64,000 bases of DNA from Oribacterium sp. oral taxon 078 str. F0262 (lineage in GTDB: Bacteria; Bacillota; Clostridia; Lachnospirales; Lachnospiraceae). The position numbers and the translations under genes are program-made. Location of the stretch: the NCBI RefSeq assembly GCF_000160135.1, contig NZ_GG729936.1, forward strand, positions 1-64,000, given 5' to 3'. Positions 1 through 19,482 of the stretch are shown here, piece after piece. Below the pieces are notes generated by a model, which did not search any database, had not been told where the DNA came from, and saw nothing but the letters and a program-made list of their open reading frames with translations. The first letter of the stretch is position 1, and the number at the start of each line of letters is the position of its first letter.

Positions 1-279
1 GCACTTGCCGCAGACAGAGCAGTAACGAACCCGCGCTTTTTCCGGTGAACATGCCTTGCAGACGCCGGAAATCCGGCATCCCTTGCGGTTGATGCAGTCA
101 TTGAACGGCCTGCCGTAGGCTCCGCTTTTCTTAAATACCAGGTGAGAGCGGACCTCTTTCGAGACGGTGGAGCAGTCCTTACCGATCCTCTCGCCGATGC
201 CCTTGAAGGAATTCCCCTCCTTGAGACCAGCCTCGATCAAGAGCCGATCATCAAGGGTAAGCTGCTTATATTTAGTCAT
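1..279 (-). CDS. IS30-family transposase, N-terminal part (cut by window edge)
   Basis: The frame starts at an ATG at 277-279 preceded by AGGAGG and stays open to base 1, giving 93 residues. It begins MTKYKQLTLDDRLLIEAGL and continues with a helix-turn-helix (about residues 20-45, with ERIGKDCSTVSKEVR) and then paired cysteines (CINRKGC, CKAC, CSVCGKC). This is the usual N-terminus of IS30-family DDE transposases of Clostridia: an HTH that binds the terminal repeats, followed by a Cys-rich linker. The DDE catalytic core lies outside the window, so activity cannot be judged. It is transcribed in the same direction as the damaged helicase gene it interrupts. Confidence 0.85.
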   Translation of the reverse strand, partial: MTKYKQLTLDDRLLIEAGLKEGNSFKGIGERIGKDCSTVSKEVRSHLVFKKSGAYGRPFNDCINRKGCRISGVCKACSPEKARVRYCSVCGKC

Positions 280-380
280 GGATCCTCCTGTTCTGGTCGG
301 AGCAACAGGTGGTGGACCAAGACCTCCATTATAATACTTTTTCAGAAGAATTAACTTCCATCCCATTCTTCGGAAGAATT

Positions 381-413
381 AAGTTCCACCTTTCAGATTT
401 CCAGGTGGAACTT
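381..413. repeat. 11-bp inverted repeat at the IS30 outer end
   Basis: AAGTTCCACCT (381-391) and AGGTGGAACTT (403-413) are perfect inverted arms around an 11-nt loop. A third related site (GGAAGTT on the minus strand) lies at 353-359. The position at the IS/helicase junction suggests transposase-binding terminal repeats. Confidence 0.6.
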
Positions 414-2771
414 CGAATAGCAATTAACATAAAGATATTCGCAAGCTCCAGGATCCCATTTCCATTGCCGTCCACCCGGTTGACCAGCTGGCGGATGTTG
501 TCTGTCAGAACACCAACATTCTCCGGATATTCTGCCTTCAGCCAGGCAATGGTATCCGCAAAGACACGACCACGTCCAATCGGCGGCAGCTGATTCGGAT
601 CTCCGATCAGAATCAGACGCTGTACACTGTTCCAGTTGATCGCCCGGAGAAGTGTCGCAAACAGATTCAGGTCGATCATGGAACACTCATCAACAATGAT
701 CATCAACAATGATAGTGTTGACATCCTGGCTGAGCTTTCCCCCGGATCTCTTCAGAGTGAAATTGTTATTGATCCATCCGTTGGAAGCCAGGAAAGAGTG
801 GATTGTAGTAGAACGCTCACCGGTCTGTGTTTTGATGCGTTCAGCAGCTTTGCCTGTCGGGGCCATAAGAAGAAAACCTGTGCTCTCTCCATGGACACGC
901 TTGATATTTTCCACAATAGCCCGGATAACCGTGGTCTTGCCGGTGCCCGCCGCACCAGAAAGAACGCAGAGAGGTTTGGTGAAAATCTTCATACAGATTT
1001 CGGCCTGTTTGTCCAGAATCGCCTCATACTGTCGTCCTGCCTTGGATATCAACTTTGAATCCTTCTTCTTCAGGCGCTCCTTAAACTTCTCTGCACTGAT
1101 TGCCCGTTTCAGGACAATATCCGGCCGATCCGTCAAAGCTTTGAAGGCGTCTTCAATGCACCGCTCATCTTCATAGACGGACCGCAAATACAGATACAGC
1201 GTATTATTCTCATCACGACGCAAATATAGAGCTTCTTCCAGTACCTCTGTCTCTATATCAAAATTTTTCAGCTTGTAGGTATATCTTTTCCACTCCGGCA
1301 TCCGATCCAGTCGATGATTAACAGACTCCAGAATGGTCGCTGTCTTTCCAAAAGAATGTGCTGCGATGCGGTTCAGCTCATCCACGCAAAAAGCGCGGAG
1401 ACGCTCGGTTGAGCCCTCATCCAGCAGGTTATCCAGTCCAAAGTCTGGCGATGCCAGAATACCGTTATCGATCTTATAAAACGGTATGACATCATCGACA
1501 TCATAGCCCTGGTACTGTTCAAAAATGATATACGGATCTGCCAGTATTTCTTCGAGAGAAACTGTGATTGATACGTTTTCCCTGTCCTCACTGAGGATAG
1601 CCTGCATCTGGCCTGCCGTAAGAGCAAATCTCGGCAGGATATCAAGTAAAAGCTTCTGTTCAGGCTCCTCTCGCAGTTTATATTCCCGGCGGATCTTCTT
1701 CAGCTCTGCTGCAGGTAATGCCTGTCCCCATACGTCATCGCGTTCTCCAACCAGCAAATCACATACCTGGTCCCGAAACGCTTTCATATCACTTTCATTT
1801 GTAAGGCGCAGATATGTGGCTTCAATGCTGCCAAGTCCAAGGTTTTCCAGCACAGAAGCAAATCCGGGATACGGCCCACGGGCAATCCATAACTCATTAA
1901 GGACGCTGCCCAGCCAGTCGCGGCGCAGCTTCCAGTTTTCTGTGGTGTCTCCTATCTCTATCAGCACTTCAACTGCGTTTACCAGCTGATTTACGATCTC
2001 TATAGCATCATCGTCCGTGATCTCCCTGGATCCGTACTTAAACGGTGCCCTGTGCAGCGGCTTGATAACCAGCCTCTCCAGAACATCTTCATTATCCATG
2101 TATTTCCAATAGGGGATACAAAACCCCTCATCTGGGTATGCTGAAGTAACCGCCTTCTGCCATACGATGCCGCCGGCATATTTCTTCCGTATTTCTTCAG
2201 AGATATTCTGGTAATAATGAAAATCTCCCATCTTCTTCAGCCGGGAAATACCAGCAACCACATAATTGTTTTCTTCATTTTCCGAGAAGGGATTGCTGTA
2301 ACCGGCATAATAAAAGACCAGGGATTTTCCCTCTTCAAACTGAGCAAAGTACTGCTCTGCCTTCCGGCTTCGCTCTTCATAATCATATTTCTGAGCTGTC
2401 CCGGACTTATTCAGGACATCATCGCTGTACATGAATTCATAGCACCAGGTACACGCTGTAGATGGCGGCAGTGTAAGCAGCGCAGGGTCTGCATCTCCCT
2501 TTCCCCACCAGCTTGGAGGATCAATCTGAATCTGAATGGTATCTTTGCCAAAAGCATTCACACTGCATCCGCACGCAGCCTTACAGGGATGAGAAGAGCA
2601 TGCCTCTCCGGCATGTTTCGTCTCATAGTCCAGATCCCTGTTTTCTGCAATCAATGTTCCGGGATAAGAATACTGCCCTACACAGTATGTATTGCCGCAA
2701 GGGTTCTTACAGATATGACCGTTCCACCCATCGCTATGCCATGCAAGGCGCAGGCTCATATGCATTGCCAT
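414..2771 (-). pseudogene. RecD-like superfamily 1 helicase with Cys-rich N-terminus, frameshifted and 3'-truncated
   Basis: The gene starts at ATG 2769-2771, eight bases after GGAGGAG and 27 bp after the sacsin-like gene. About 690 residues are in frame. The first ~90 are cysteine-rich (CKNPC, CGNTYC, CSSHPCKAACGC), followed by ~500 residues of unrecognised sequence. A RecD/UvrD-type ATPase domain follows with Walker A GAAGTGKTT near residue 603. The frame then breaks inside Walker B at 688-713. A second frame downstream continues the same domain (IIVDECSMID, then LILIGDPNQLPPIG, the typical SF1 motif III region). The coding stops near 414, where IS30 sequence begins, so the C-terminal helicase domain (UvrD_C_2 in relatives) is missing. 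The protein is almost certainly non-functional as sequenced. An AAA/RecD2-like helicase is the best family match; its function in the island is unknown. Confidence 0.8.
688..713. repeat. 13-bp tandem duplication causing a frameshift
   Basis: The 13-mer CATCAACAATGAT occurs twice back to back (688-700, 701-713). Removing one copy joins the two helicase frames and restores VNTIIVDECSM, a normal Walker B. Thirteen is not a multiple of three, so the second copy shifts the frame. Confidence 0.95.
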
Positions 2772-2798
2772 GCCACCATCTCCTCCGAAAATGTATTA

Positions 2799-5700
2799 TC
2801 AAATCAAAGTCAGAAAACCCTTTTTAAACGCATCCGGAAGTGGAAATTTCTTCTCTCCTGCTTTTGGGAAACTAACACCCATATAAGGGCCGTCTATGTA
2901 AGTAATCACACCGTCTCCAAATGCCTTATGACGGACTTTTGCGCCAACTTGCGGCTTTGACTGCGATGCTGGTTTCTGACCATTTGTTATATTGCTTCTC
3001 TCCTCCTGTCGCGGAGGCTGCGGAACCATTGGCTTCCGCTCCGGCAGGGGCCTTTCAACAGGTCTTTCCCGCCTCTGGTCGTCTCTCCTGTGATCAACGA
3101 TATATACCTGTTTTCTCTCACGCTGCGGATGAGCCAAGGGGCCAGTAACATTCTCCCGAATCTGAGATACAGGCTTTGCTACCGGTTCCGGATCTTCCTG
3201 ACCGGGAATCCCATACTGCTCTAGGAGAGAAAGTATTTCTTTCACCTCCGCCAGATGCGTCTGGGTAAAGTGAACCGTAGCGTCAGAAGAAAGCTCGATT
3301 TCATAATCTTCTGCCGGCGTTCCGATGTCGATATTCCGAAGTGCTCTTGTCATTTCTTCCTTGAACTTCTCTTTGCTTCCATCGCGGAACTGCTTATATC
3401 GCGAAGAACAGTTTTTGCAGAGGCAGAGGTTCAGCTGCGGCATCTCGATCCCGTAATTCGCAATTTCGGTCACATCCACATACGGTGCTGCCTTTTTGCA
3501 CATCTGACAAATCTGTGTATCGCTCTCATTCACATACATACCCAGCGTATAAGCACGAATTGTTTTCGGCGACTTGCTGGTTCTGATCTGCCGGAGCACT
3601 TTCTGATAGCGTACCGGATCTGCACAGAAGAATTCCTGACGAACATGCTCGATTAAGCTGTCCAAATTTCGCACCCTGCGCTGAGGAAACTCTTCCGACT
3701 GCCAGGCATTCGGATCAAATGTCCCTCTGTCATCCTCATCTTCCGTAGGCTGAATCCTGCCAATATCTGAAATATCAAATCCGAGTTCTTTAGCCAGCTG
3801 ACGGAACATGATCGTCTTATCACGCCGGTCCAGGGCGCCGACCATTTCAAAAGTATCCGCCTTGGCATCTGCCTCTTTCTCCACAAAGCCAAGAACTGCA
3901 AAAGCTTCCTTCTTATTCGGCAGCTCACTATAAATCTCTTCATCCAGGTCATAGCGAGATATCTGCGAGGGCCGATGCAATTCCCCATTTTTATCAAACA
4001 GCCAGTCATTATAGCTCAGTCTCCATAAAAAGCTGGCATTTTCATGGCTATCATAGGGATTATTCTTCCGCTTCCTGACAACGCCGCTCAGTTTTCCGCT
4101 GATAGAAAGCAACAGTTTCATCAGTTCTGCAGACTTTCTCTTAGCCAACTCCTCCTTGGGATGATATTCAATATACTCAATATTCTCATCCAAGCCATCG
4201 ATTTGCATGTTCGGACAGAATTCACCCAGCGCTCTCCAGTAACCATCACCAGTTCCGCTGTAGTCCGCCCGCTCTCCCTCGATCACCGGCGTAGTGATCA
4301 ATCCAAGCTTCTTCAGTTTCGACAGGGATATTCCATGGTCCTCATAAAACTCCCGGTCTATCTGATAATGGTCGAAATTATATGGATCCCCATCCTCCAT
4401 AATCGGCCTGTCGTTTTCTTCGTCATAATCCACTTCATATGCTTCACATACCGGCGCATAGTAGGTCAGGAGGTCTATGCCCTCATCGGAGGTATCTACA
4501 TATACGGCATGGGGGAAAGCAAAGGAATTATTCCCGTCTTCTGTCTTGATCTTGATGATATAAGCATTCCGCAGAAGAGCCATAACTTCTGCCGTATTCC
4601 CAGATTCTTCGATCAGATCCAGAAGCTGCTGGATGTCTTCAATATATTCCCGTTCAAAGTGAGCATCGTCTTCGAAATGAATCTTCTCATCATCGCCCTG
4701 AATATACTTTTTAATGATCTTTTCTTTGACGAACTGATAGTTATCAAATTCTGCGATCTGAAAACCATCCTTGAAAAGAGACTCATAGTCCTGCGCCACC
4801 TTCGTACTGACAATGGAAGAAGGCCGAAGGGTACGATACCGGCTGGAGGCATTCAGATATACGGATAACGCATTCTCTTCATATGTCGGCACCAGATCAT
4901 TTTCTGCATTCAAAATCACAGGCGCCTTGCGAAGATGCGGCCAGGCTTTTGGCAGGCAGGCTCGAATGGCCAGTTCATATGCTCCACCTCTGGTATAGGT
5001 CAAATTGGACCGATACAAGCTTTCTCGATAGTCGGAAAGGAAACTATACAGAGCTTTCAGGGATTCCAGATACATCTCCGAAGTAGAAATGCTCTGCACC
5101 GGCAGTTTCCCAAGTTCGATTGCCCAGTGAGATAAGTCGAAGGTCCGGATGCAGAGATCATCCCGGAGCCAGGAAAAATACTCGGTAAAGTTCCTTTCTC
5201 TCTCATTGTTAAAGGCAACAAAATGATCCACTGCATAGAATGATTCCTTCCAAAGGACGGAATCCTTTAAATCGGCCATCTGAAAAGGAACAGAAATAGC
5301 CAGTTCATTTTTATTGCGATAGTCTCCGAGGCGGTCAGGTAAGATGCTTTCCTCCGAAAACACCTTTGTAATCTTATCCTTCAGCCCCCTGATTGTCCCA
5401 TTCTTTGCTTCATCCTGAAAGGCAGAAAGAACGACGCGGCGCAGAAACACCTGAGTGATCAGGTTTCTTTTTGCAAGATCCATCATCGATTCTGCAATCA
5501 AATCTCCCAGCCTGCCAAACAGACTGTCATTGAAGGTGGACGGCGTCATCAGTTTTTCTCGGGAAACAGCTGTCTCGAAGCTGCCATGAATCAGGAACGG
5601 CAGATCTGTCATATCCCGTGTAGGAAAGTACACCCACACCGGTGTATGCTCCATCTCATTGATATTCCTTGCCTGAACATTCAACCTGTATGCGACCGCC

Positions 5701-6518
5701 ACCTCTGCGGACTTCATATCAGGATGGTCAAATACCTTTTTGTAGCGGAGATAACGGGAAATCTCTTCTTTTCCATCACTTTCGGATCCGATAATCCTGC
5801 AGGTCAGGAGCTGATCATCTCCATTTGCATGGCTCAGCGTAATGTGGACGTATTTCCCGTTTTCTTTATTGATCCAGTACAGGTTACGTATATAGGTCAG
5901 AAACAGCAGAATCTCGCCGGACAAGCTGTTTAGTTTGTCCAGGACATCCTTACCGCTGACGGCAACCAGCTCTCCTTTTTCATTGCGTTTCTTGAACGGG
6001 ATGACGATTTTTGTCAGGTGCTGCGTATTGGCAAATGGAAGATATTTCGTTCCATCTCCGTCCGGATAAGCCAGGGTGCTCTTCAAACCCTGAAAGTCCC
6101 AGTGGCTGTCATTTTCCACAGGAAGCAGATAATTCTTGATGATAAAGGCTTCTTCATCCGAATAAATCTCCGGCTGATAGGTGTATTTGAAAACAGATTT
6201 AAAGCCCATGCCGAATCTTCCGATGGTCTGAGCATCGTTTCTGTCTTTTGTTCCCATCAGCATAGATGACACACCACGCACATCATCTTCATCGAAAGGA
6301 TCCCCATTATGATAGAAAACGAGCTGATCCTTATAGAATTCAATGACGACCTTTGTCGCTTTTTCATCCTCTGCATTCTGCAAAAGTTCATAGACAAAAT
6401 GATTGCTGTCCGAATAGTGCCCGGCCAGAAGAGCCTCATATTTCTGGGGCTCTCTGGTTAGTGCTTTCCACTCATCCTGATTCGTCGCATAGATCTTCTG
6501 ATAATCTATTCTGCCCAT
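2799..6518 (-). CDS. Sacsin-like GHKL (HSP90-type) ATPase, 1239 aa, with zinc-ribbon and Tudor-like tail
   Basis: The N-terminus carries a GHKL/HSP90-type ATPase: the N box in HFVYELLQNAEDEKATKV (about residues 40-57) and the G2 box IGRFGMGFKSVF (about 105), as in sacsin-repeat and MORC-like proteins. The long middle is helical and unrecognised. A cysteine cluster at about 1004-1038 (CQMC, then LCLCKNC) looks like a zinc ribbon. A proline/arginine-rich linker follows. The last ~48 residues (GAKVRHKAFGDGVITYIDG and onward) resemble the small Tudor/SH3-like tail of UvrD/PcrA helicases, which binds protein partners. The gene sits between a SNF2 helicase (14 bp away) and a RecD-like helicase (27 bp away). 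I infer an ATP-driven conformational switch in a defence complex. Sacsin-like ATPases recur in defence islands, but the substrate is unknown. Start: ATG at 6516-6518, with AAGGAG ten bases upstream. Confidence 0.75.
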   Translation of the reverse strand: MGRIDYQKIYATNQDEWKALTREPQKYEALLAGHYSDSNHFVYELLQNAEDEKATKVVIEFYKDQLVFYHNGDPFDEDDVRGVSSMLMGTKDRNDAQTIGRFGMGFKSVFKYTYQPEIYSDEEAFIIKNYLLPVENDSHWDFQGLKSTLAYPDGDGTKYLPFANTQHLTKIVIPFKKRNEKGELVAVSGKDVLDKLNSLSGEILLFLTYIRNLYWINKENGKYVHITLSHANGDDQLLTCRIIGSESDGKEEISRYLRYKKVFDHPDMKSAEVAVAYRLNVQARNINEMEHTPVWVYFPTRDMTDLPFLIHGSFETAVSREKLMTPSTFNDSLFGRLGDLIAESMMDLAKRNLITQVFLRRVVLSAFQDEAKNGTIRGLKDKITKVFSEESILPDRLGDYRNKNELAISVPFQMADLKDSVLWKESFYAVDHFVAFNNERERNFTEYFSWLRDDLCIRTFDLSHWAIELGKLPVQSISTSEMYLESLKALYSFLSDYRESLYRSNLTYTRGGAYELAIRACLPKAWPHLRKAPVILNAENDLVPTYEENALSVYLNASSRYRTLRPSSIVSTKVAQDYESLFKDGFQIAEFDNYQFVKEKIIKKYIQGDDEKIHFEDDAHFEREYIEDIQQLLDLIEESGNTAEVMALLRNAYIIKIKTEDGNNSFAFPHAVYVDTSDEGIDLLTYYAPVCEAYEVDYDEENDRPIMEDGDPYNFDHYQIDREFYEDHGISLSKLKKLGLITTPVIEGERADYSGTGDGYWRALGEFCPNMQIDGLDENIEYIEYHPKEELAKRKSAELMKLLLSISGKLSGVVRKRKNNPYDSHENASFLWRLSYNDWLFDKNGELHRPSQISRYDLDEEIYSELPNKKEAFAVLGFVEKEADAKADTFEMVGALDRRDKTIMFRQLAKELGFDISDIGRIQPTEDEDDRGTFDPNAWQSEEFPQRRVRNLDSLIEHVRQEFFCADPVRYQKVLRQIRTSKSPKTIRAYTLGMYVNESDTQICQMCKKAAPYVDVTEIANYGIEMPQLNLCLCKNCSSRYKQFRDGSKEKFKEEMTRALRNIDIGTPAEDYEIELSSDATVHFTQTHLAEVKEILSLLEQYGIPGQEDPEPVAKPVSQIRENVTGPLAHPQRERKQVYIVDHRRDDQRRERPVERPLPERKPMVPQPPRQEERSNITNGQKPASQSKPQVGAKVRHKAFGDGVITYIDGPYMGVSFPKAGEKKFPLPDAFKKGFLTLI

Positions 6519-6532
6519 TCTCCTGCCGCTCC

Positions 6533-9500
6533 TTAATCGACGTGAAGAACTCCTCTGACAAGAAGGTTGGTATGGATATCCACCTTTGCCACGGTCTCAT
6601 CGACTTTTTTAGTCTGTGCATTGTACTTCTTTGTGATATTCTCCAGCTGGGCGATCCTCATTCGCTTGATCTTATCATCTGTAGCAGATTCGACCTGCCC
6701 GCGGACAATCGCTTCCTGCTGATGGAAGGAGTGTGCCAGCTGCTCCTTCCTGTATTCACACTCATCCCGAACATCTGCGGAATACTGCTCCTTAGAATCC
6801 TGCCAGCGCTTATAATGCAGGTCATCCATCTGGTCCCAGCTACTTTGATGAGTACCGTCATCCTCGTAATACTCGGATGCATACTGGATGAAATTCAGGA
6901 TATTCTTCTCCACAGCAGGATTGCTGCTTACTGCTACCAGACGGATATCCGGCCGCAGGCCAACATATCTCCATGCATAGATCAGGAATTCATAATCTCC
7001 CGGTTCCACTTCCGGATCCGCAATCCGAACTGCAAGGTCGCAGGGGAAATTCCTGCTTTCATAAGCGGCCGCCTGTGCGACAAACGGATGCATCTGTGTG
7101 AAAAATGTCACATCCCGGTTGTCCTTCGCATACTGGCTTTCAAACGTCACGGAAAGTACAGGTTTATCCGATTTCAGATAAGCCTTCCAAAGCTTCGTAG
7201 CATGGTTATTTGTAGAAAGCGGCATCTTCATCAGGTCATCCAGCAGAAGCTGACGCTTATCGGCAGCCAGCCGGAGTGTCTTTCCATCCTGCTTTCCTCT
7301 CAGGTATTCTCCCTGTCCGAGGTAGTCATCCATGAAGATGTTCAAGAGTTCATTGAGACTCTGCGGATTGATCCAGGCATTTTCTGCATCCTGGACATCC
7401 TTATCCATCATGTATTTCGACAGATCAAATCCATACAGAGACTTCTCTTCCTGTTCCAGGCGATGCAGCTCCTGTACCTTCATGACTTCGTTATCCGCCA
7501 TCTGCTCGATCTTCATCTGACGTTCTTCGTCCGTCAGCTCCGGATCAAACATAATCTTGAAAATCTGGTCACTGATATCACCAAGGATTTCAGAACAGTC
7601 ACCGATACTGGCTTCAAAAACGCCGATCTTTGACAGACACCGGTCATAGATAACCGCATCGATGGTCCCCTGCGTAATCATGTTATAGATCTTCACGGTA
7701 TCGCTCTTCTGTCCGCGACGATCGATTCTGCCGATTCTCTGCTCAATCCGCATCGGGTTCCAGGGCAGGTCATAGTTGATCATCGTGTCACAGAACTGAT
7801 AGTCAAGACCTTCACAACCCACTTCACTAAAGAACAGAACATCGACAGCATTCACGTTATCCCGGTCCAGAAGGAACCTCTGGCGAAGCTTATAGCGTTC
7901 CTCATCCGGTACAGAACCATCCACCTGGCCCACACGGATTCCCTGCGCAGTCAGCTTTTCCCGAAGATAGGAAAGCGTATGCCGGAAAGAACTGAAAATG
8001 ATGACACGGTTATTATCCGTCGTCTGCTTCTCCTGAATCACTTCCAACATCCGGTCGAATTTCGGGTCATCCTTGGGAAGATCTCCGGAAAGCTTATCAA
8101 TCTCGTCTGCCAGTTCAAACAGGGAGTTTTCCTCGTCACTGTTCAGTTCAAAATCATATTCGTAAAGCTCTCCATCTTCCTGAATCTGTGAAAGGCGGCG
8201 CTTTACAATATCATTCATAAACGGTGCAAGACCGTAGATGCAGCTAGCAGCCTGCCGCATAATAGTGCACATCATAAACCGCACACTGCGGCTACCATGA
8301 AGCTGTGCCAGCGCTGTGCTTTCAAATTCGATCAGTGCATCATAAAGATCCCTTTGTACGCCGTTGAACGGCACCTCTACCGTTTGTGTTCTTCGGATAC
8401 AGAAGTCTTCAATGTCCTTCCGCCTTGTACGGTTGATCATCGTATGGAAGGAATGCAGGCCCTCTATCTTCCCGATCATCTCGATCCGTTCATCACGTGT
8501 GACCTCTGTCCTGTCCAGGAAGGTAAAGATCTTCTCAAACTCAGGATTGTGCTGAATGACGTTCCTTCCCCATGTCGTGCTAAGAATATTCGCTATCTCG
8601 GCCTTCCCTGCTTCCTGCCATCCTTCCTCCTGGTTCCGGACAATCCGGAGGAGATTGTTGATGAACGCATTGGGTTCAGACATGGTTTTGAAGGTATCTT
8701 TATCAATAATCACATCCGGACGAAGCAGGTTCAGCAGGGTATACAGGTCATTGTTGCTGTTCTGCAGCGGCGTTGCCGTCAGGAAAACTACAGCATCCGC
8801 ATTTCTGCAGAAAAGTTCCACTCCACGATAAGCCCAGGTATTGGCGTTCCGGATGTTATGGGCCTCATCCACGATGACCAGGTCAAAGTGCGGAAGCGGG
8901 TCCAGTTCAGATAAACCGATATCCTTGTGTTTTTTGCCGGATCTGGATCCCCTGCCCATGATGGAATCCTCTCCAAACAGGGAGTACGGAATAATTGTTT
9001 TGCTGTGCCGCTCCGGCCACTCACCATCACGGTCTGTCTCAGAAATACACTCGGCAAGCATTCTACCGTCCAGCTGGGTAAAGTCTTCGTCGAAGCGCTT
9101 CATTTCCAGCTGCCACTTGCGCTCAGCGACCAGCGGTCTTGGGCAGATAACAAGTACAGAGGTAAGACTCGACCTTGCCTCCAGTTCCTTCAAAATCAGT
9201 CCGGCTTCGATTGTTTTACCAACACCGACATCATCCGCCACAAGGACACGCGGGCTGTCTGCCTGGATCATCCGGAGCGCCGGCCGGAACTGATATGGAA
9301 CAAAATCGATTCTGGCAGAGTTCAGAGAATACAGATTCGAAGAGCCGGGGTTATGTATCTGATAAGCAGTCAGAGCAGACCGAACCTTCGGAAGGGATAA
9401 ATATTTATGCTCTTCCTTAGCATTCTGAAGCTGGATCTGCTCCTTGTAATAAGACTGCACTTTTCCATTGACCAGTACAGAATACTTGTTTCCGCTGACT

Positions 9501-10117
9501 CCGATCACTGCGCCGATCACTGACGGATCACTGACGAGGACAACAATGCTTCCAACAGCGATTCCTTCCGGCTGCCCGACAGAGGCAGGGCTCTCTGCAG
9601 CAGGCGCGGCTTCCTTCACAGGTTCTTTCGCCGGAGTTGCATGGATATCCTTATCTTCTTCTACGTCAAAGATAAAGTTCTCCATATCCCTGGTGTCTTT
9701 CATGCTGGCATCAAAAGCCTGCATGAGGGCAATGATGACATTCACATCATCAATCACCTTGGCTTTACTGATATCGTTCGGCGTAATATGAGCCCAGGTA
9801 TTCCTGATCTCCTGCATGGTCCTGATATTGCCCCGCTCTTTGTTATTGATAAAGAAGGTGCTTGTTATCACGAACCAGTTTCTGTCCAGCACGCGAAGAA
9901 GGGCTGCAAGATCCAGCCCTTTGATCTCGTGAATATCATTCCGAAGTACAGTCTCCCGCTGAAGCGGGCTCAGGTTGTTGAACACCAGATCCTGCCACCA
10001 GTCATCAGTGATCTTGGGCAGCTTCTTCTCAAGCCACCCTCCAATCTGCTGGTTCAGCCGGAACATGTACTCATTCATCTTACTGATGATATAGGAAGTA
10101 TCCATATCTTTATCCAT
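6533..10117 (-). CDS. SNF2-family helicase with N-terminal Swt1-like HEPN domain, 1194 aa
   Basis: Residues 1-140 resemble the Swt1-like HEPN domain and contain IRNTWAH, which fits the R-x(4-6)-H ribonuclease motif of active HEPN proteins. Residues about 185-235 look like a small KOW/SH3-like barrel (VGSIVVLVSDPSVIGAVIGV). A two-lobe SNF2/SF2 motor follows: Walker A DDVGVGKTIEAG near 292, DEAH box VDEAHNIRN near 435, motif III FLTATPLQN, and C-lobe motifs (EVGCEGLDYQFCDT, RIEQRIGRIDRRGQ). About 350 C-terminal residues are unassigned. It starts 1 bp after the PIN-like gene without a clear Shine-Dalgarno, so translation is probably coupled. HepA/SNF2-type helicases (brxHII, drmD) are known partners in BREX type 5 and DISARM. 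The HEPN fusion suggests nuclease output as well as DNA translocation. Alternative: HEPN used only for protein contacts. Confidence 0.8.
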   Translation of the reverse strand: MDKDMDTSYIISKMNEYMFRLNQQIGGWLEKKLPKITDDWWQDLVFNNLSPLQRETVLRNDIHEIKGLDLAALLRVLDRNWFVITSTFFINNKERGNIRTMQEIRNTWAHITPNDISKAKVIDDVNVIIALMQAFDASMKDTRDMENFIFDVEEDKDIHATPAKEPVKEAAPAAESPASVGQPEGIAVGSIVVLVSDPSVIGAVIGVSGNKYSVLVNGKVQSYYKEQIQLQNAKEEHKYLSLPKVRSALTAYQIHNPGSSNLYSLNSARIDFVPYQFRPALRMIQADSPRVLVADDVGVGKTIEAGLILKELEARSSLTSVLVICPRPLVAERKWQLEMKRFDEDFTQLDGRMLAECISETDRDGEWPERHSKTIIPYSLFGEDSIMGRGSRSGKKHKDIGLSELDPLPHFDLVIVDEAHNIRNANTWAYRGVELFCRNADAVVFLTATPLQNSNNDLYTLLNLLRPDVIIDKDTFKTMSEPNAFINNLLRIVRNQEEGWQEAGKAEIANILSTTWGRNVIQHNPEFEKIFTFLDRTEVTRDERIEMIGKIEGLHSFHTMINRTRRKDIEDFCIRRTQTVEVPFNGVQRDLYDALIEFESTALAQLHGSRSVRFMMCTIMRQAASCIYGLAPFMNDIVKRRLSQIQEDGELYEYDFELNSDEENSLFELADEIDKLSGDLPKDDPKFDRMLEVIQEKQTTDNNRVIIFSSFRHTLSYLREKLTAQGIRVGQVDGSVPDEERYKLRQRFLLDRDNVNAVDVLFFSEVGCEGLDYQFCDTMINYDLPWNPMRIEQRIGRIDRRGQKSDTVKIYNMITQGTIDAVIYDRCLSKIGVFEASIGDCSEILGDISDQIFKIMFDPELTDEERQMKIEQMADNEVMKVQELHRLEQEEKSLYGFDLSKYMMDKDVQDAENAWINPQSLNELLNIFMDDYLGQGEYLRGKQDGKTLRLAADKRQLLLDDLMKMPLSTNNHATKLWKAYLKSDKPVLSVTFESQYAKDNRDVTFFTQMHPFVAQAAAYESRNFPCDLAVRIADPEVEPGDYEFLIYAWRYVGLRPDIRLVAVSSNPAVEKNILNFIQYASEYYEDDGTHQSSWDQMDDLHYKRWQDSKEQYSADVRDECEYRKEQLAHSFHQQEAIVRGQVESATDDKIKRMRIAQLENITKKYNAQTKKVDETVAKVDIHTNLLVRGVLHVD

Positions 10118-10118
10118 T

Positions 10119-12071
10119 CTATTTCAAGATTTGTAAGTATTCATGAAGCTTCTTTTCATAAACTGATGTTTCATAGTGGTTTGCCTTCTTGTCTATCCAT
10201 CTTCCAATAAACTTCCCACGCGATGTAAGCGTATCAATAATTGAAAGTACAGAAACAATTACAAATGCTATAAGGAAGAGCGATTTCGGTGTGGAAGACA
10301 ACGATCGAAATAGTCCAATTATACACAGTACAGCAATAACAACAAAGGCAATGACTACAGGTATTCTTCTTGTCTTTATGAACTGATTCTTCTTATCACT
10401 TGCATATGTATGAGCTTTTTCTTTTGCGTCTGTTATCTTTTGCTTTTTATCTTCTTCTGCTTTGTTCCTATATATTCTTCGGATTTCTGTTTCTGTATCG
10501 CCTATTAATTTCTGTTTTTGCCTTTGTTGAAGCTTTTCTATATACTTATCGTCAATACTCTCGACAGTGGGAAAATATTCAATCCAAAGCTCTCTTTGGG
10601 TCACTCGATCGGCTCTTAGCAACACAGCCTCTTCTTTTGTAATCTTTCCTTCGTTTTCCAATTGACCTAAAATGACTCTGCACTTTTCAATTATTTCCGG
10701 TGCTGGTTGCATTGCAGTATATGAATTGGTTAACAATTGTCTTTCTGGTATATCCGCCCTGACTTCCCCGCCTTTAACCCATGCTATGGCAGATAAGTCA
10801 AAGGACGTTATTACCGGCATTACTCTGTCACCGCCGAAATTCTCTCGGTAAAAACTATTAAACGCATTCGTAAAATCCACATTTGTTGTCACAAAAATAG
10901 CCTTGCATTTTTCTATTTCTCGACTTACCACCCCGTTTCGTATTCTGTGAATTGCTAGTGCAGATGTAACATCGGATCTCAAATTATCATCTGTATAATG
11001 CCTTGTATGACCTCTAACATAGTCCATGGCTTCAACTTCCGATATGTCGATGCTATCCAAATCAACACATCCATCCTCTTTAGTCGCGTATCCCGGCGTA
11101 TTACATAGTTTTATTCCAAACTGTTCTTCTAACGTGTTAACAAAAGTCTTTTTTATTCGAGTAACACCGTCAAAATCGTATCCTTTACTGTCCAAACCTT
11201 CTAACGTACGGGAAGACCGTTGTTCGCCAATCAACGAATGCTGATAAGCGGTTAGAATAGACAGCATTTCTCTCTCGTTTTGTTCAAAGAAGAAAAACTT
11301 AGCACCTTGTTTTTTCAGAAGCATGTGAAGGGTAATTGCAGAATCTGTCTCCTGTTCGCTCTGATACCCAAGCAGCTGAAGTAAAATAGGAGTGTCATAG
11401 TATATATCTGTGTTTTTATACGATGCGGCTTTAATGTTTGCATTATCCACCTGAAGATAGATAGCGGATCTCAAAAAGTAACCTTTTGTTAAATCAAGAA
11501 ATACAGTATATTCAATACTTTCCTTTCTCTTTTGTTCAAAAATATATTGTGCTATAAAATAATTAATTTCATCATGGTTTAATGAAATTGTTTCCGCTTC
11601 AAGTGTATCGAACCCCACTTGTAAGGCAAAAACAGAAAAAAACTCTTGAAGAAACGCTATGCATTGCTCCTTTGAAATAATTCGCGTTCTCTTACAATGA
11701 TTTTTCAAGTATTCGAAAAGACTCTCTCCTATTCTGTCGATCTTCTCCGCGCATTCCTTCTTTCTTAGAGTGAATCTCTCAACCTGCTCATCTAAAGACT
11801 TTGTTAACCTATATTCGCGGTTCTTTTTATCGAAGTGAACTTTATCTCTTGATAAGATCTTTGCAATAACAGATTCCGGGATGTCTACATATCCAAAATC
11901 ATGTCGAATAATATTGGTAACTTTTTGAATATCAATGTTTTCGTTAGGAGATGTAGTCTGTGCTACAGCATAATGAATAAACGGTGTGATGAGATCTATC
12001 ATATCCTTTCTTCTGGAAGACCAAAAAGCTTCAAGAAGTACTGTACCTGTTAATGCTGATTGATTCTGCAT
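10119..12071 (-). CDS. PIN-like protein with two C-terminal transmembrane helices, 650 aa
   Basis: I do not recognise a named family over the full length. Features consistent with a PIN-type nuclease fold are DIYYDTPILLQLLGY (about 223-238, first acidic residue), an acidic/helical stretch with DVTSALAIHR, and IFVTTNVDF (about 390, typical fourth strand). The tail has two hydrophobic helices (RIPVVIAFVVIAVLCIIGLF near 570-590 and SLFLIAFVIVSVLSIIDTL near 598-616), preceded by a charged coiled coil, so the protein is probably anchored with its nuclease-like part in the cytosol. Base composition is strikingly AT-rich (11,521-11,580 is 13/60 G+C, against 35/60 for 9,001-9,060 next door), which suggests separate acquisition as cargo. 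Start: ATG after AGAGGCGG. It lies 41 bp after pglZ and 1 bp before the helicase. Confidence 0.6.
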   Translation of the reverse strand: MQNQSALTGTVLLEAFWSSRRKDMIDLITPFIHYAVAQTTSPNENIDIQKVTNIIRHDFGYVDIPESVIAKILSRDKVHFDKKNREYRLTKSLDEQVERFTLRKKECAEKIDRIGESLFEYLKNHCKRTRIISKEQCIAFLQEFFSVFALQVGFDTLEAETISLNHDEINYFIAQYIFEQKRKESIEYTVFLDLTKGYFLRSAIYLQVDNANIKAASYKNTDIYYDTPILLQLLGYQSEQETDSAITLHMLLKKQGAKFFFFEQNEREMLSILTAYQHSLIGEQRSSRTLEGLDSKGYDFDGVTRIKKTFVNTLEEQFGIKLCNTPGYATKEDGCVDLDSIDISEVEAMDYVRGHTRHYTDDNLRSDVTSALAIHRIRNGVVSREIEKCKAIFVTTNVDFTNAFNSFYRENFGGDRVMPVITSFDLSAIAWVKGGEVRADIPERQLLTNSYTAMQPAPEIIEKCRVILGQLENEGKITKEEAVLLRADRVTQRELWIEYFPTVESIDDKYIEKLQQRQKQKLIGDTETEIRRIYRNKAEEDKKQKITDAKEKAHTYASDKKNQFIKTRRIPVVIAFVVIAVLCIIGLFRSLSSTPKSLFLIAFVIVSVLSIIDTLTSRGKFIGRWIDKKANHYETSVYEKKLHEYLQILK

Positions 12072-12112
12072 ATATCTAACCGCCTCTTTAACAATTCCTG
12101 ATTAATATCTTG

Positions 12113-14635
12113 TCACATTTCTGCAATATCGATTGTGAATTTGTACTTCTGGTGGATCTGAGATTCATCATCCATATCCGCCAGCACAAGATAATAGTCC
12201 TGACCGGTCCGGTACTTCCCACTTCTTAGCGTGAACTTCTCCGTAATCAGGCGCTTACTTGCCTCTTTATCCCGGATATTGGCGATGATCGGTACATCAA
12301 AAGATATCTTCTTTCCGGTCTCATCCACAAAGAAGGCTACCAATTTTCTCGGTTTATCCTTGTCTGTTACCGGCGTCATCTGCATGAAATCCAGTTTGAA
12401 TTCGGTGTTCGTAATTCTGGAGATGAAGGAACTGATCTCCACGTTCACATAGCCGGTATCCTGCTTTCCTTTTGCCGTAATAACTTTCACCACCGGAACG
12501 ATCATCTCCTGCAGGGAAGAACCGCCATGAACATAGTTCATACCTCCAGCCTGTTTCTTGATAATATCCGTTCCCATGGGGGTCGTGACAAAGATACGGT
12601 TAAAAGCACTGAGGTAAGCCAGGGATCTGCTGATAAGAGCATCATTCTGATACTCACTGTTGGAGAGCAAATACCTGTAATTGGTCTTAGGAATATCTGA
12701 CTTATCAATGGAGATCTTATCGCTCTCCGTCAGCTTATCCCGCTTATAAATAAATCCATGGTCCGAAGTCACCAGGAACCTTGTGGCAGATACATAGCCT
12801 GTGAGCCGGTGGATCAGCGTCTGGATCTCCTTGACTGCCTCTTCGCAGGCATTGAAGGCTTCATTTTCGGATCTTCCGCCTTCCCCTCTCTGGTCGATCT
12901 GGTTCTGATAAACATAAACCACATCCTTATCCTGTAGGAGATCCCGGATTTCGCTCTGTTTTGCTGTCATCAGGCGGTCAAAGTCCACACAGATAGAGCG
13001 CGGAATCTGGCTCTGCAGGATCTTCTGCCGATCTAATGTGCTATTGCCGCACTTCATTCCATCCACTGTAATATTCAGTTCTGCATCCACCTGAATATCT
13101 TTATTTGGCAGCAACGATGCCATACCAAGCGTAGTTTCTGAAGGAAGAACACTCAACATATGGTTCATGCGGACCGTGCACTTTTCATCTAACTCCAGGT
13201 TTTCGAACAGTTCCCGACCACATTCATAACGCATACCATCGGAGATGATAACGATCACACGGCCTTCTCTTCCATCCTCTCTCATGAACGGACGGACAAA
13301 GTCCGCATAGAACTGCTCCTGCCTTCTTCCTGCATAGTCCTTATAAGCTTCATCCGTAAGAATCTGATTCCACTTAAAGGAGAAATCTGTCAGGAATTTG
13401 TTGGTATAGATATTTTCGACCAGATCCCGGAGCTTTTCTGTCTCCACCGTCATGCCAACCGCATCCATGTAGTAATAAAATTTGCGATAGTTCCGGTCGA
13501 TCTGATAGGTGTTTTCGGTATAGTCCTGGACAACCTCCGTAAGCGTGGGCTTGAAGGAGTGCAGCGACACTCCCTTTAACACATGCCACGCATGATAGAT
13601 CATCTTGTAGCGTTCGCCGTACCGTTCATTATAGTGATAGCAGGGCTTTATCCGCTCTTCACAGATCTGCGGGATGGAAAGGCCGGCAATCTTTTCATCC
13701 AACATGCCGTCTTCAATCTTTGCGATCATCCAGCTCAGCAGGTTTTCATCAAAATCAGGCAGCGCATCACACTCCAGGATATCCTCCAGGCGGATCTGTC
13801 GGATCATGGTGGGAGCCTTCAGTTCTGCGGAAACTTTCTCGGCAAACCCATCATAGAAAGCCTTGCTCTCATCGTTATTCATCAGGTTCTTAACGAATAC
13901 GACTGCATCATTCTGTCTGGCGGAAAGGAACGTTTTCCACCCTTTCGGGATATTCCCGCCCGTGACGGTATCCATATAGGTCACGATCATCGTGCAAAGG
14001 AGCTCGGATATGGTCGGTGTCAGATCCTTATATCCCAGATTCTTCTCGCAGAGATCCCAAAAGATCCGGTCAAGTCTCTGACTTTCCATTCTCTTCAGAA
14101 TGGTGTTATCCTCTGCCCCTGCAAGGACAGTCTTTTTCAGAAGTTCATCAAAACTCAACGTCTTCACGCCGGCAAGGACGCACAGCATGCCAAGATGCAG
14201 CCTTTCCTTCGTAATATCCTCGATGGAAAGCTTCCGGAATTTATCGATATTACCGCTGGTCCAGAATTTCCGGAAGCGCTTGACCTCGTCCTGGCACTCC
14301 GTGGGAATTCCGAGTTCTCCCATGATCTGCACCAATTTGTCGGAGTAAAAATGCTGCGAATAATAGAAAATATCCGCCAGGAAATTCTCCCTGTCATCCG
14401 GACGGGAAAATGGTGCATAGAGCAGGTAATTACCCTCCGGATCCCGCTCTTCAATCTGAAGCTTTGTCTCAAACCAGTTGGATTCTGTGACGATCCAGAG
14501 CTTTATGCCTTCTGCCAGCGCAAAATCATGGATATTCTCCTCATATGAGCCATCATCGTCATACCAGAAAACGAGTTTCCTTCCCATTCCGGTAAGCATG
14601 GCATTCAGTTTTTCCTGTATTTCTGTCAGATCCAT
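12113..14635 (-). CDS. pglZ: BREX alkaline-phosphatase-fold protein PglZ (type A)
   Basis: PglZ is a core protein of BREX phage-defence systems and works with the PglX methyltransferase. The 840-residue length and the opening (MDLTEIQEKLNAMLTG, then KLVFWYDDDG and YLLYAPFSRPDDRENFLADI) match the BREX-1 PglZ type A family. The metal-binding phosphatase core is visible: VIVIISDGMRYECGRELF (about 455-475), SVLPSETTLGMASLLP, and FLVTSDHGFIYK (about 620), with the D/S-T/DH residues expected of the alkaline phosphatase superfamily. Start: ATG 14633-14635 after AGAGGT, 22 bp downstream of the pglX remnant. The gene looks intact although its partner pglX is truncated, so any remaining role would be outside canonical BREX. 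Confidence 0.9.
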   Translation of the reverse strand: MDLTEIQEKLNAMLTGMGRKLVFWYDDDGSYEENIHDFALAEGIKLWIVTESNWFETKLQIEERDPEGNYLLYAPFSRPDDRENFLADIFYYSQHFYSDKLVQIMGELGIPTECQDEVKRFRKFWTSGNIDKFRKLSIEDITKERLHLGMLCVLAGVKTLSFDELLKKTVLAGAEDNTILKRMESQRLDRIFWDLCEKNLGYKDLTPTISELLCTMIVTYMDTVTGGNIPKGWKTFLSARQNDAVVFVKNLMNNDESKAFYDGFAEKVSAELKAPTMIRQIRLEDILECDALPDFDENLLSWMIAKIEDGMLDEKIAGLSIPQICEERIKPCYHYNERYGERYKMIYHAWHVLKGVSLHSFKPTLTEVVQDYTENTYQIDRNYRKFYYYMDAVGMTVETEKLRDLVENIYTNKFLTDFSFKWNQILTDEAYKDYAGRRQEQFYADFVRPFMREDGREGRVIVIISDGMRYECGRELFENLELDEKCTVRMNHMLSVLPSETTLGMASLLPNKDIQVDAELNITVDGMKCGNSTLDRQKILQSQIPRSICVDFDRLMTAKQSEIRDLLQDKDVVYVYQNQIDQRGEGGRSENEAFNACEEAVKEIQTLIHRLTGYVSATRFLVTSDHGFIYKRDKLTESDKISIDKSDIPKTNYRYLLSNSEYQNDALISRSLAYLSAFNRIFVTTPMGTDIIKKQAGGMNYVHGGSSLQEMIVPVVKVITAKGKQDTGYVNVEISSFISRITNTEFKLDFMQMTPVTDKDKPRKLVAFFVDETGKKISFDVPIIANIRDKEASKRLITEKFTLRSGKYRTGQDYYLVLADMDDESQIHQKYKFTIDIAEM

Positions 14636-14657
14636 TCCGTCAACCTCTTTCAGGCTT

Positions 14658-15286
14658 TTAAATCTTTGCCAACAGGTCTATCGTCTGCTTCTTCTTTCCT
14701 TCCGTCGAAACCTCCACGCCCTGGAACAGCTGATAGTTCTTCTTCACGCCATCATCCAAATCCATCGGAATCCGCTGCAGTGCAATATGGGATAAGGCCT
14801 GATAATACGGACGCAGCTCGTTCAGCTGTTTCACATACTTATCCTTCTTTCTGATCTCCCGTGCCCGTTCCGTCGCGCTGGTAGTCGTGGAAATAATGTA
14901 CTCCGAATTCTGCAGGGAATTCTGGATTGCCGCCTGTGCATTATGCAGGTACACTGAACGGATCAGGCCAACGGTGTCCGGTGTGTAGCGATGGATATAG
15001 ATCAGCGCCTTAAATCCATTCTGCTTGCCAGAATCAAAGAGCCAGTAGATTGGACGCTTGCCGGATCCCGTAACAGAATAGGTGTTGCAATGATCCTTGT
15101 AGAAATCATTCAGGAAATAATTCCGGATCACTGCTCGCGGTGTATCGCCTTTGTTTCCAAGTGCATCTGCGATGAACTTCAGGTTCTCCTCCAGTGTCTC
15201 CTCTCCATAGACGACGCGTATGAAATCAATAAACCTGGCTACAATATCATCCTTGAAATACTCTTCGTAGTCAAGTCCAAATTTGT
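14658..15286 (-). pseudogene. pglX: C-terminal remnant of BREX adenine methyltransferase PglX
   Basis: About 209 codons remain in one open frame, running from FGLDYEEYFKDDIVARFIDF through VIRNYFLNDFYKDHC, KRPIYWLFDSGKQNGFKALI and YIHRYTPDTVGLIRSVYLH to a normal stop just before pglZ. The KRPIYWLFDSGK.NGFKALIY.HRY block is characteristic of the PglX C-terminus. All N-terminal methyltransferase motifs (AdoMet-binding, NPPY) are gone; the upstream side is replaced directly by the end of an IS256-like element. Inference: a deletion anchored at the IS removed the rest of pglX and the upstream brx genes. Confidence 0.88.
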
Positions 15287-15996
15287 GTGTAAATTGCCTT
15301 CAGGTAAAACTGTTGATAACTACGCTGCCAGGAGCGCCGCCTGTACCATAGGCGATCATCAGCGCCTTTGAAACAACGCGGCTGTTCTCTCGTACCTTGA
15401 AATACGTGGCATCGACCGTGAGGAATGGATAATTTCCCTCGATCGGCCGGTTCCGGAATGTCTCGACTTCCTGATCGAGATCCTTGCAGACAGCGGACAC
15501 GGCAGATTTGGAGATCGATGTGCCGCAGAGTGTTTCTACGACCCTTGCGACTTTTCTTGTAGAGACACCGCTTACGACCATTTCCACCATGGAGGCGACC
15601 AGAGCGGCCTCGCTGCGGGAGTAGTTCTCGAAGACCATTGTATGGAACAGTTGGTTCCGATGCCTCGGTACGTTCAGTGTGATCGTTCCGATTCGTGTCT
15701 TGAGATCTCTGCTCCGGAACCCGTTCCGGCTGTCTGTACGGACGTCTGAACGCTCGTATGGGGCGGCTCGGAGCTGCTCCTGCGATTCGATCTTAAGGAT
15801 CGAATTCAGGCTGTCCTGAAGGAGGATCCGGAAAGCGTCCTCGCGGTCGACGGAAAGTAACTGTAGAATTTCGTCCTGATTCAATGTAATATTGAGTCGA
15901 GCCATTGGTTCTCCTTTCGGTACTATGTTGAATGTTGCGATTCTCATTATACCTAAAGGCTGAGCCGCTGGCTCTTTTGAATTATCGAATTTACAC
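15287..15996 (-). mobile_element. Internally deleted IS256-family (Mutator-type) element, about 710 bp
   Basis: The segment is bounded by 9-bp perfect inverted repeats, GTGTAAATT at 15287-15295 and its complement at 15988-15996, typical of IS256-type ends. Inside is only the first half of a transposase, so about 600 bp of the usual ~1.3-kb element has been lost. The flanks (AGTCCAAATTT on the left, CATTATATGG on the right) show no target duplication, which suggests the element marks a deletion junction rather than a simple insertion. Confidence 0.75.
15300..15905 (-). pseudogene. IS256-family transposase, C-terminally truncated
   Basis: Start: ATG 15903-15905 after AAAGGAGA. The ~201 residues cover the N-terminal DNA-binding half and enter the catalytic domain: SRSEAALVASMVEMVVSGVS, TRKVARVVETLCGTSISKSA and FLTVDATYFKVRE, the last containing the first catalytic Asp. 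Shortly after KALMIAYG the frame runs into GSVVINSFT and a stop; the second Asp and the Glu, normally in the next ~150 residues, are absent. It is inactive unless complemented in trans. Confidence 0.88.
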
Positions 15997-16009
15997 CATT
16001 ATATGGGCA

Positions 16010-18979: not shown

Positions 18980-18993
18980 CTCCCCTCCTGTCT

Positions 18994-19482
18994 TCAGTCC
19001 TCCAGATTTGCCTTTTCCACGCTGAGGACAGTGAATTGAAGGACACCATTCTGCGTCTCTACCTCCACGGTATCCCCCTCCCTGTGATGGAGGAGCGCCT
19101 TCCCCACCGGGGATTCATTGGAAATCTTCCCCTGCAGCGAATTCGCCTCCGTGGATCCGACGATGGTATATTCCACCTCCTCGTCGAATTCCTTATCGAG
19201 AAGCTTCACATGGCAGCCGATATTGATACTGCCCTCTTCCGTGTCGTCCACGACCTCCGCATTTTTCAAAAGCAGCTCGAGCTGCACGATGCGCTCCTCG
19301 ATCTCCCGCTGCTCATCCTTTGCCGCATCGTATTCCGCATTTTCAGAGAGATCTCCCTGTTCTCTTGCTTCCTTGATCTTTCCCGCGATCTCCTGCCGGC
19401 GATTCACCTTTAAATCATGGAGCTCCGCCTCATACTTGTTGAGACCGGCCCTCGTCAGTAAATTTTTCTTCCCCTCAGCCAC
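18994..19482 (-). CDS. greA: Transcription elongation factor GreA
   Basis: GreA enters the RNA polymerase secondary channel and stimulates cleavage of backtracked RNA. The 162-residue protein has the N-terminal coiled coil with the tip acidic pair (GDLSENAEYDAAKDEQ, about 42-58), then the FKBP-like C-terminal domain (VEYTIVGSTEANSLQGKISN, SPVGKALLHHREGD). The start is a GTG (19480-19482), the first residue of the conserved MAEGKKNLLT opening, with AAAGGA upstream. First gene of greA-lysS. Confidence 0.95.
   Translation of the reverse strand: MAEGKKNLLTRAGLNKYEAELHDLKVNRRQEIAGKIKEAREQGDLSENAEYDAAKDEQREIEERIVQLELLLKNAEVVDDTEEGSINIGCHVKLLDKEFDEEVEYTIVGSTEANSLQGKISNESPVGKALLHHREGDTVEVETQNGVLQFTVLSVEKANLED

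Follow-up and report, generated by a model that had tools for sequence, protein, structure and literature searches.

A HEPN-SNF2, sacsin-type GHKL and RecD-like gene trio at a decayed BREX locus of Oribacterium and beside other restriction systems

Gene content and decay of the locus

The window analysed here is a 64,000 nt stretch of Oribacterium sp. oral taxon 078 str. F0262 (contig NZ_GG729936.1), whose base 1 coincides with the contig start, within a 2.68 Mb genome assembly of 12 contigs. Near its start lies the remnant of a bacteriophage exclusion (BREX) locus on the minus strand, which runs in the sense of transcription from a PglX stump through PglZ, a PIN-like protein, a HEPN-SNF2 fusion and a sacsin-type GHKL ATPase to a RecD-like helicase (Table 1). 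The original prediction had listed these six genes with gaps of 22, 41, 1, 14 and 27 bp; open reading frame (ORF) and profile matches bear out the list, and the recomputed gaps are the same. The last three genes recur together elsewhere, next to BREX and to other restriction systems, and very probably form a separable module.

PglZ scores 566.7 bits against the BREX-1 type A model TIGR02687 (cut-off 270.35). The HEPN domain at the head of the SNF2 protein carries the motif RNTWAH; HEPN_Swt1 exceeds its Pfam cut-off in all 10 proteins tested, and RNxWAH is kept in all 8 aligned copies. The SNF2 part has RapA as its nearest solved structure and, among PADLOC profiles, matches DrmD (379 bits) ahead of BrxHI/BrxHII (197) and BrxHII (134.8), with no NCBIfam BrxHII match listed. 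The GHKL protein exceeds the cut-offs of SACS (48.7 versus 32.8 bits) and P_loop_sacsin (90.8 versus 50) and matches solved sacsin structures (E 4e-10); four conserved cysteines near residues 1004–1037 look like a zinc site. The RecD-like protein belongs to the PADLOC candidate family PDC-S68, with full-length matches in genome G079 (residues 9–1242, 1546 bits) and locus L156 (1660 bits), and 982 bits for the part left in the window (profile 1–775, in two frames). Its C-terminus retains RSKSE, PDF and EHxG motifs in 12/12 aligned copies (window, G061 and G764 being excluded as truncated or short) and in 6/6 copies from the viral collection and NK3A20. Foldseek, run on a model of this region (predicted local distance difference test, pLDDT, 70.9), ranks highest PD-(D/E)XK nucleases or proteins that contain them (R2, DrdV, Bax1, Hjc), three of them at E ≤ 0.001. 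In the viral collection, among the best 80 of at least 600 stretches, only L162–L165 and L161 (on the L156 contig) match the RecD profile over its length or half of it.

As a BREX locus the window copy is dead. By comparison with G079, the PglX stump retains roughly 200 C-terminal residues out of 1222, and beyond it lie an insertion sequence (IS) remnant of the IS256 family, a DUF6462 ORF, lysS and greA rather than the remaining BREX genes. The BrxC of G079, used as a query in a search run without a positive-control genome, finds no match in the window genome (97.4 % complete); the same query recovers BrxC at 29–66 % identity in the loci of four other genomes. With BrxL as query, the window genome yields nothing but a Lon-like C-terminal match at another site (24 bits). 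The locus lacks the intact PglX and the BrxC that type 1 BREX requires, and BrxA and BrxB as well, no genome-wide search for these two or for BrxD having been made; the original description of a decayed BREX locus devoid of BrxL stands.

The trio itself is partly damaged. The HEPN-SNF2 and GHKL genes have intact frames with no stop. In the recD-like gene, the ORF at 690–2771 spans positions 1–685 of the 1202 in the PDC-S68 profile and a second frame (329–724) spans 680–775; a 13-bp duplication shifts the frame in the ATPase core, where the DE(C/S)S motif is encoded. The C-terminal PD-(D/E)XK nuclease part is missing, cut off by a mobile element that runs off the contig and whose boundary near 430 was placed by comparison with the NK3A20 reading frame. 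HTH_38 is usual in IS30-type transposases, and we take the element to be of that type. The NK3A20 copy (1217 aa, L003:11763-15416) lacks the duplication and is intact; it is followed by a second GHKL-like gene (670 aa, L003:15485-17497) with a weak HATPase_c_3 match below the cut-off. With both the BREX core and RecD broken, the module is a relic in the window.

The RecD-like gene is broken differently in three of five Lachnospiraceae-type copies (window; G088, by one in-frame stop; G061, by truncation), while at none of these three loci is HEPN-SNF2 broken. Keeping the RecD nuclease may carry a cost, or this arm may vary by phase. In three genomes the defence island has the greA-lysS pair at its flank (window 17009-19482; NK3A20 L003:5987-8145; G088 L011:9245-11668), which suggests that the site beside lysS is an insertion hotspot; no further case of this flank is found among the other loci searched.

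Table 1. Features at the BREX remnant and its flanks, in window coordinates
Feature	Position	Strand	Details
Mobile element interrupting recD-like gene	1..430	-	First ORF 1-282, open at contig start, HTH_38
RecD-like superfamily 1B (SF1B) helicase gene, broken	430..2771	-	PADLOC PDC-S68
13-bp exact tandem duplication in recD-like gene	687..712	-	687-699/700-712
Sacsin-type GHKL/Hsp90-like ATPase, intact	2799..6518	-	1239 aa; SACS, P_loop_sacsin profiles
HEPN (Swt1-like) fused to RapA/DrmD-like SNF2 motor, intact	6533..10117	-	1194 aa
PIN-like protein, C-terminal helices look membrane-spanning	10119..12071	-	650 aa; motif reading
PglZ, BREX-1 type A, full-length	12113..14635	-	TIGR02687
PglX C-terminal stump	14658..15280	-	ORF 14658-15131; profile match 14715-15266; right end by reading
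Shortened IS256-family element	15281..16005	-	Transposase ORF 15300-15947; ends are a short inverted match by eye

Recurrence of the trio and its host settings

An intact relative of the locus is found in genome G079, in the order brxA-brxB-brxC-pglX-(2 genes)-pglZ-[HEPN-SNF2]-[sacsin GHKL]-[RecD-nuclease], with gaps of 33, 40 and 16 bp. BrxA, BrxB, BrxC, PglX and PglZ stand in one run there, as type 1 BREX requires, with BrxC at 1111 bits (cut-off 400), PglX at 1325 (500) and PglZ above the TIGR02687 cut-off, making G079 an intact BREX-1 example; its RecD is also intact. No BrxL is present in the downstream stretch read, and a search of the genome gives only a 25-bit Lon-like match. The two genes between pglX and pglZ encode a Tmn-like YobI ATPase (L012:9385-13053) and a DUF1016/YhcG nuclease (L012:13192-14259).

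Across 397 same-family genomes, the window's own included, a profile of the GHKL protein (E ≤ 1e-30) matches seven, four of them over full length (window, G088, G079 and G061). In all four, HEPN-SNF2 lies directly before the GHKL gene and a PDC-S68-type RecD directly after it, so the notion that these genes almost never occur together does not hold. A sample of the phylum yields two matches in 398 genomes, of which one is the window genome and the other is partial. A HEPN-SNF2 profile search of viral contigs, in two runs, adds six loci. The GHKL profile finds no relative in the viral collection; that scan is insensitive, since GHKL genes adjoin SNF2 matches there.

Every locus with a readable 3′ side (10/10; L155 breaks off, and L002 shows only the end of SNF2) has a sacsin-type GHKL gene next to the HEPN-SNF2-family gene. 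The GHKL gene is directly downstream on the same strand in nine (window, L002, G079, G088, G061, L153, L154, L156 and L160); at L159 a GHKL fragment is adjacent on the opposite strand. The two genes are separated by small gaps or overlap, and such dyads span bacteria and one archaeon. RecD comes third in five of the seven loci readable past GHKL (window, G079, G088, G061, where it is truncated, and L156; not L153 or L154).

The host settings differ. The order HEPN-SNF2, sacsin-type GHKL, RecD is common to G079 (BREX-1), G088, G061 (type III restriction-modification, R-M) and L156 (type I R-M). At L156 the trio is preceded by HsdM, HsdS and HsdR together with an Mrr-type gene, and at L155 a type III methylase and a res gene precede HEPN-SNF2; over 291 residues, that L155 res gene shares 96 % identity with the one directly preceding the trio in G061. 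McrC precedes the module at L153, with a phage portal gene nearby, and a Vsr gene follows it at L154; the prophage-gene neighbours at these two loci fit mobility of the module. In G088 the upstream neighbour, at 494 bp, is a partial TOTE-type primase-helicase; the 40 kb read there contain no BREX gene, and no BrxC match is found. Separability from pglX and pglZ, as originally proposed, is thus seen in G088, without BREX, and in G061 and L156, beside R-M genes.

At L160 the module is divergent from a set with an HKD-type SNF2 helicase and a type III methylase. This set, with further helicase genes, recurs in G035 (L078) and G689 (L081), where it ends in the same RecD-nuclease; the HKD and methylase labels were tested on L160 only.

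The original prediction counted four genes in the module, the PIN-like gene among them. The recurring set is real, although it comprises three genes: none of G079, G088, G061 and L156 has the PIN-like gene, and the family of that gene occurs in only 2 of 195 same-family genomes, including the window's own, the other at 22 % identity, so that a four-gene module is ruled out. At 36.6 % G+C, against 46–49 % in its neighbours, the PIN-like gene is an independent AT-rich insert outside the conserved module. The label itself is a motif reading: the protein matches nothing above a curated Pfam cut-off, no NCBIfam or PADLOC profile at E ≤ 0.01 and nothing in the PDB, and its AlphaFold model (mean pLDDT 49) is too poor for a fold search. 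Relatives (L140, L141, L152) are orphans in unrelated settings, carried by plasmids and a viral contig; where annotation names the neighbours, in two settings, they adjoin recombinase, CBASS-like or type III R-M genes.

Trees of the SNF2 and GHKL proteins both pair the window with the non-BREX genome G088 (support 0.998 each), followed by G079 and then G061. In the RecD tree the window, NK3A20, G061 and G689 lie apart from G079 and G088, at about 25 % identity between the groups, and the PglZ tree places the window with G079 and G731. Since the window's partners differ among these trees, the parts have been exchanged, the RecD member included. Over 13 loci the SNF2 and GHKL trees have 6 of 10 splits in common (Mantel r 0.37, p 0.049), and nine-locus trees of the two differ in the position of the archaeal row. 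The relatives are under purifying selection: against near copies, the ratio of nonsynonymous to synonymous substitution rates (dN/dS) is 0.031 for SNF2 (554 codons), 0.085 for RecD (690 codons) and 0.14 or 0.049 for GHKL (690 and 576 codons), a range of about 0.03–0.14.

These patterns bear on whether the trio is a unit at all, or a set of independent defence genes that chance and shared mobility have brought together in islands. In favour of chance gathering, both RecD and the PIN-like gene turn up in numerous other settings, and RecD has a history unlike that of SNF2-GHKL. Set against this are the constant adjacency of GHKL to SNF2, with small gaps or overlap and from bacteria to an archaeon, and the partial agreement of their trees; chance gathering is accordingly held to be improbable.

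The trio and brxL

Given its place directly after pglZ, where brxL usually stands, the module was originally proposed to swap for brxL. BrxL is found in 76 % of type 1 BREX systems and lacking in about a quarter, and helicases replace it in types 5 and 6, according to the available text of PMC12839542. A BREX-1 subtype with the trio in place of BrxL as a DNA-unwinding restriction arm would have a precedent in those types, and the position of the trio in G079 and the window agrees with it. TIGR02687 matches 44 of the 397 family genomes at 47 pglZ places, each of which was read up to ~17.5 kb downstream where the contig allowed, and four of which were also read upstream. Downstream of pglZ, 28 loci have BrxL, 5 a BrxL fragment and 9 neither in at least 10 kb; 5 end too soon. 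The trio is present in two of the nine brxL-less loci and in none of the 33 with brxL or a fragment, and neither trio genome has a full BrxL. An exclusion of this kind has a chance of about 0.04, but both trio loci belong to one clade and the figure is hence not pressed.

Support for the swap is weak. The trio is found at 2 of the 47 pglZ loci (window and G079), both in a PglZ clade shared with G731 (support 1.000), and in G731 an intact core of BrxA, BrxB, BrxC, PglX and PglZ is accompanied by neither the trio nor BrxL. The module lies outside BREX in most of its settings: the window's closest SNF2 and GHKL relatives are those of G088, and the module also follows type I and type III R-M, systems that have no BrxL. 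A BREX-1 subtype of this kind is therefore quite unlikely, the least probable of the explanations weighed here.

Relation to named systems and possible working of the module

With type 1 BREX the window shares PglZ and the PglX remnant, and G079 the BrxA, BrxB, BrxC, PglX and PglZ genes; the difference lies in the lack of BrxL and in three extra genes after pglZ that are also found with other systems. With type 5 BREX, in which BrxHII stands in for BrxL, the locus shares a RapA-like SNF2 gene in the place of brxL. However, on BREX-5 models the G079 PglX reaches 271 bits against 900 and the window PglZ 43 against 250, and the SNF2 protein scores higher for DrmD than for BrxHII, bears a HEPN domain and is accompanied by GHKL and RecD genes. 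A named BREX subtype is ruled out by the low type 5 scores together with the PADLOC and NCBIfam results.

DrmD, the nearest PADLOC profile to the SNF2 protein, is a member of class 1 DISARM (defence island system associated with restriction-modification), but the NCBIfam DrmD model NF038317 gives only 295.4 bits against a cut-off of 610 (310.7 for L156). No separate DrmA, DrmB or DrmC gene is found among the scanned proteins of the window and the G079 locus, no genome-wide search having been made. ARMADA, in the available text of PMC12458937, likewise has BrxHII/RapA-like and further helicases near a PglX-like methylase, but no YprA-type helicase is among the genes scanned here. The DUF499 ATPase of DUF499-centred BREX-related systems (Hma) has no match among the locus proteins, and HmaA is matched only by the shared helicase core.

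Parts of the arrangement are already known. Fusions of an active Abi2/Swt1-type HEPN to a SWI2/SNF2 ATPase were recorded in 2013 (PMC3710099); the accessible text mentions neither a sacsin-GHKL nor a RecD partner for them. MORC and paraMORC GHKL genes occur with SNF2 helicases in R-M operons, and a looping or clamp role has been proposed for them (PMC2292703); these operons likewise combine a GHKL ATPase with a SWI2/SNF2 helicase and nucleases in an R-M context, but the GHKL protein here is of the sacsin type, and sacsin goes unmentioned in the accessible part of that source. The substitution of a helicase for BrxL in types 5 and 6 is also known, as cited above. The RecD-like gene is a member of PDC-S68, which PADLOC lists alone, without a link to HEPN-SNF2 or GHKL; that link is new to us. 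The trio is unnamed in PADLOC, NCBIfam and the literature searched (which covered few subscription journals and preprints), and the original remark that no named system has this set agrees with this.

The simplest reading of the host settings is an add-on to several restriction systems. In full, this reading has a separable three-gene restriction add-on used beside different systems that mark or recognize DNA, and it is plausible, though held at slightly less than even confidence. Several findings weigh against it. HEPN-less SNF2 genes followed by sacsin-type GHKL genes exist (G047, G729, Ensifer, two Rhizobium plasmids and the archaeon Methanomethylovorans), so the RNase is dispensable. RecD is not a fixed member: L153 and L154 lack it, G047 and G729 have another superfamily 1 (SF1) helicase gene in its place, and Ensifer has a RecB-like nuclease there; conversely, RecD occurs without SNF2-GHKL in G035, G689, G174, G764 and several plasmids. 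Three of seven plasmid SNF2 relatives, all at ≤30 % identity, show no GHKL match, and 4 of the 10 splits differ between the SNF2 and GHKL trees. The sample is also small, with full-length GHKL in 4/397 family genomes and a partial match in 1/397 others of the phylum. A split HEPN gene was looked for upstream of the HEPN-less SNF2 genes of Ensifer, Rhizobium and Methanomethylovorans, with no match.

From the observed domain content, motifs, adjacency, several host settings and purifying selection, a working mechanism for the add-on can be put forward tentatively, every enzymatic step and the coupling being inferred. The module would sit at the 3′ end of BREX-1, type I or type III R-M or McrC-linked systems and act beside them, with RecD often its third member, supplying the PD-(D/E)XK nuclease. 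The host system would flag unmarked invading DNA, onto which the SNF2 motor would be loaded, and the GHKL ATPase could serve as an ATP-gated clamp or scaffold that links the complexes. RecD would then unwind the DNA and its nuclease cut it. The HEPN RNase carried on the motor may be a fail-safe, cutting RNA and arresting the cell if the motor stalls or the attack on DNA fails.

Alternatively, the module could be a guard, sensing inhibition of the adjoining R-M or BREX system and aborting infection by means of the HEPN RNase, a role proposed for PARIS towards Ocr (PMC12839542, available text). The many kinds of neighbour system and the RNase motif kept in 8/8 copies would suit a guard, and an Hsp90/sacsin-type ATPase could sense protein states. 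Against it, several dyads have no HEPN, the RecD-nuclease points to attack on DNA, and no sensor domain is identified. A guard role is thus considered unlikely.

Taken further, the restriction add-on could be an effector cassette independent of its host system, one that attaches alike to BREX-1, type I, type III and McrC-type systems; this is a possibility, and a rather doubtful one. If true, these host systems would all present the same signal or DNA intermediate, to be read by one shared motor complex. G079 offers an intact brxL-less BREX locus with a defined candidate restriction arm, and the same arm beside type I R-M in L156 makes it testable whether unlike restriction systems share one add-on. 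The trio also places a sacsin-type ATPase in a prokaryotic genetic context.

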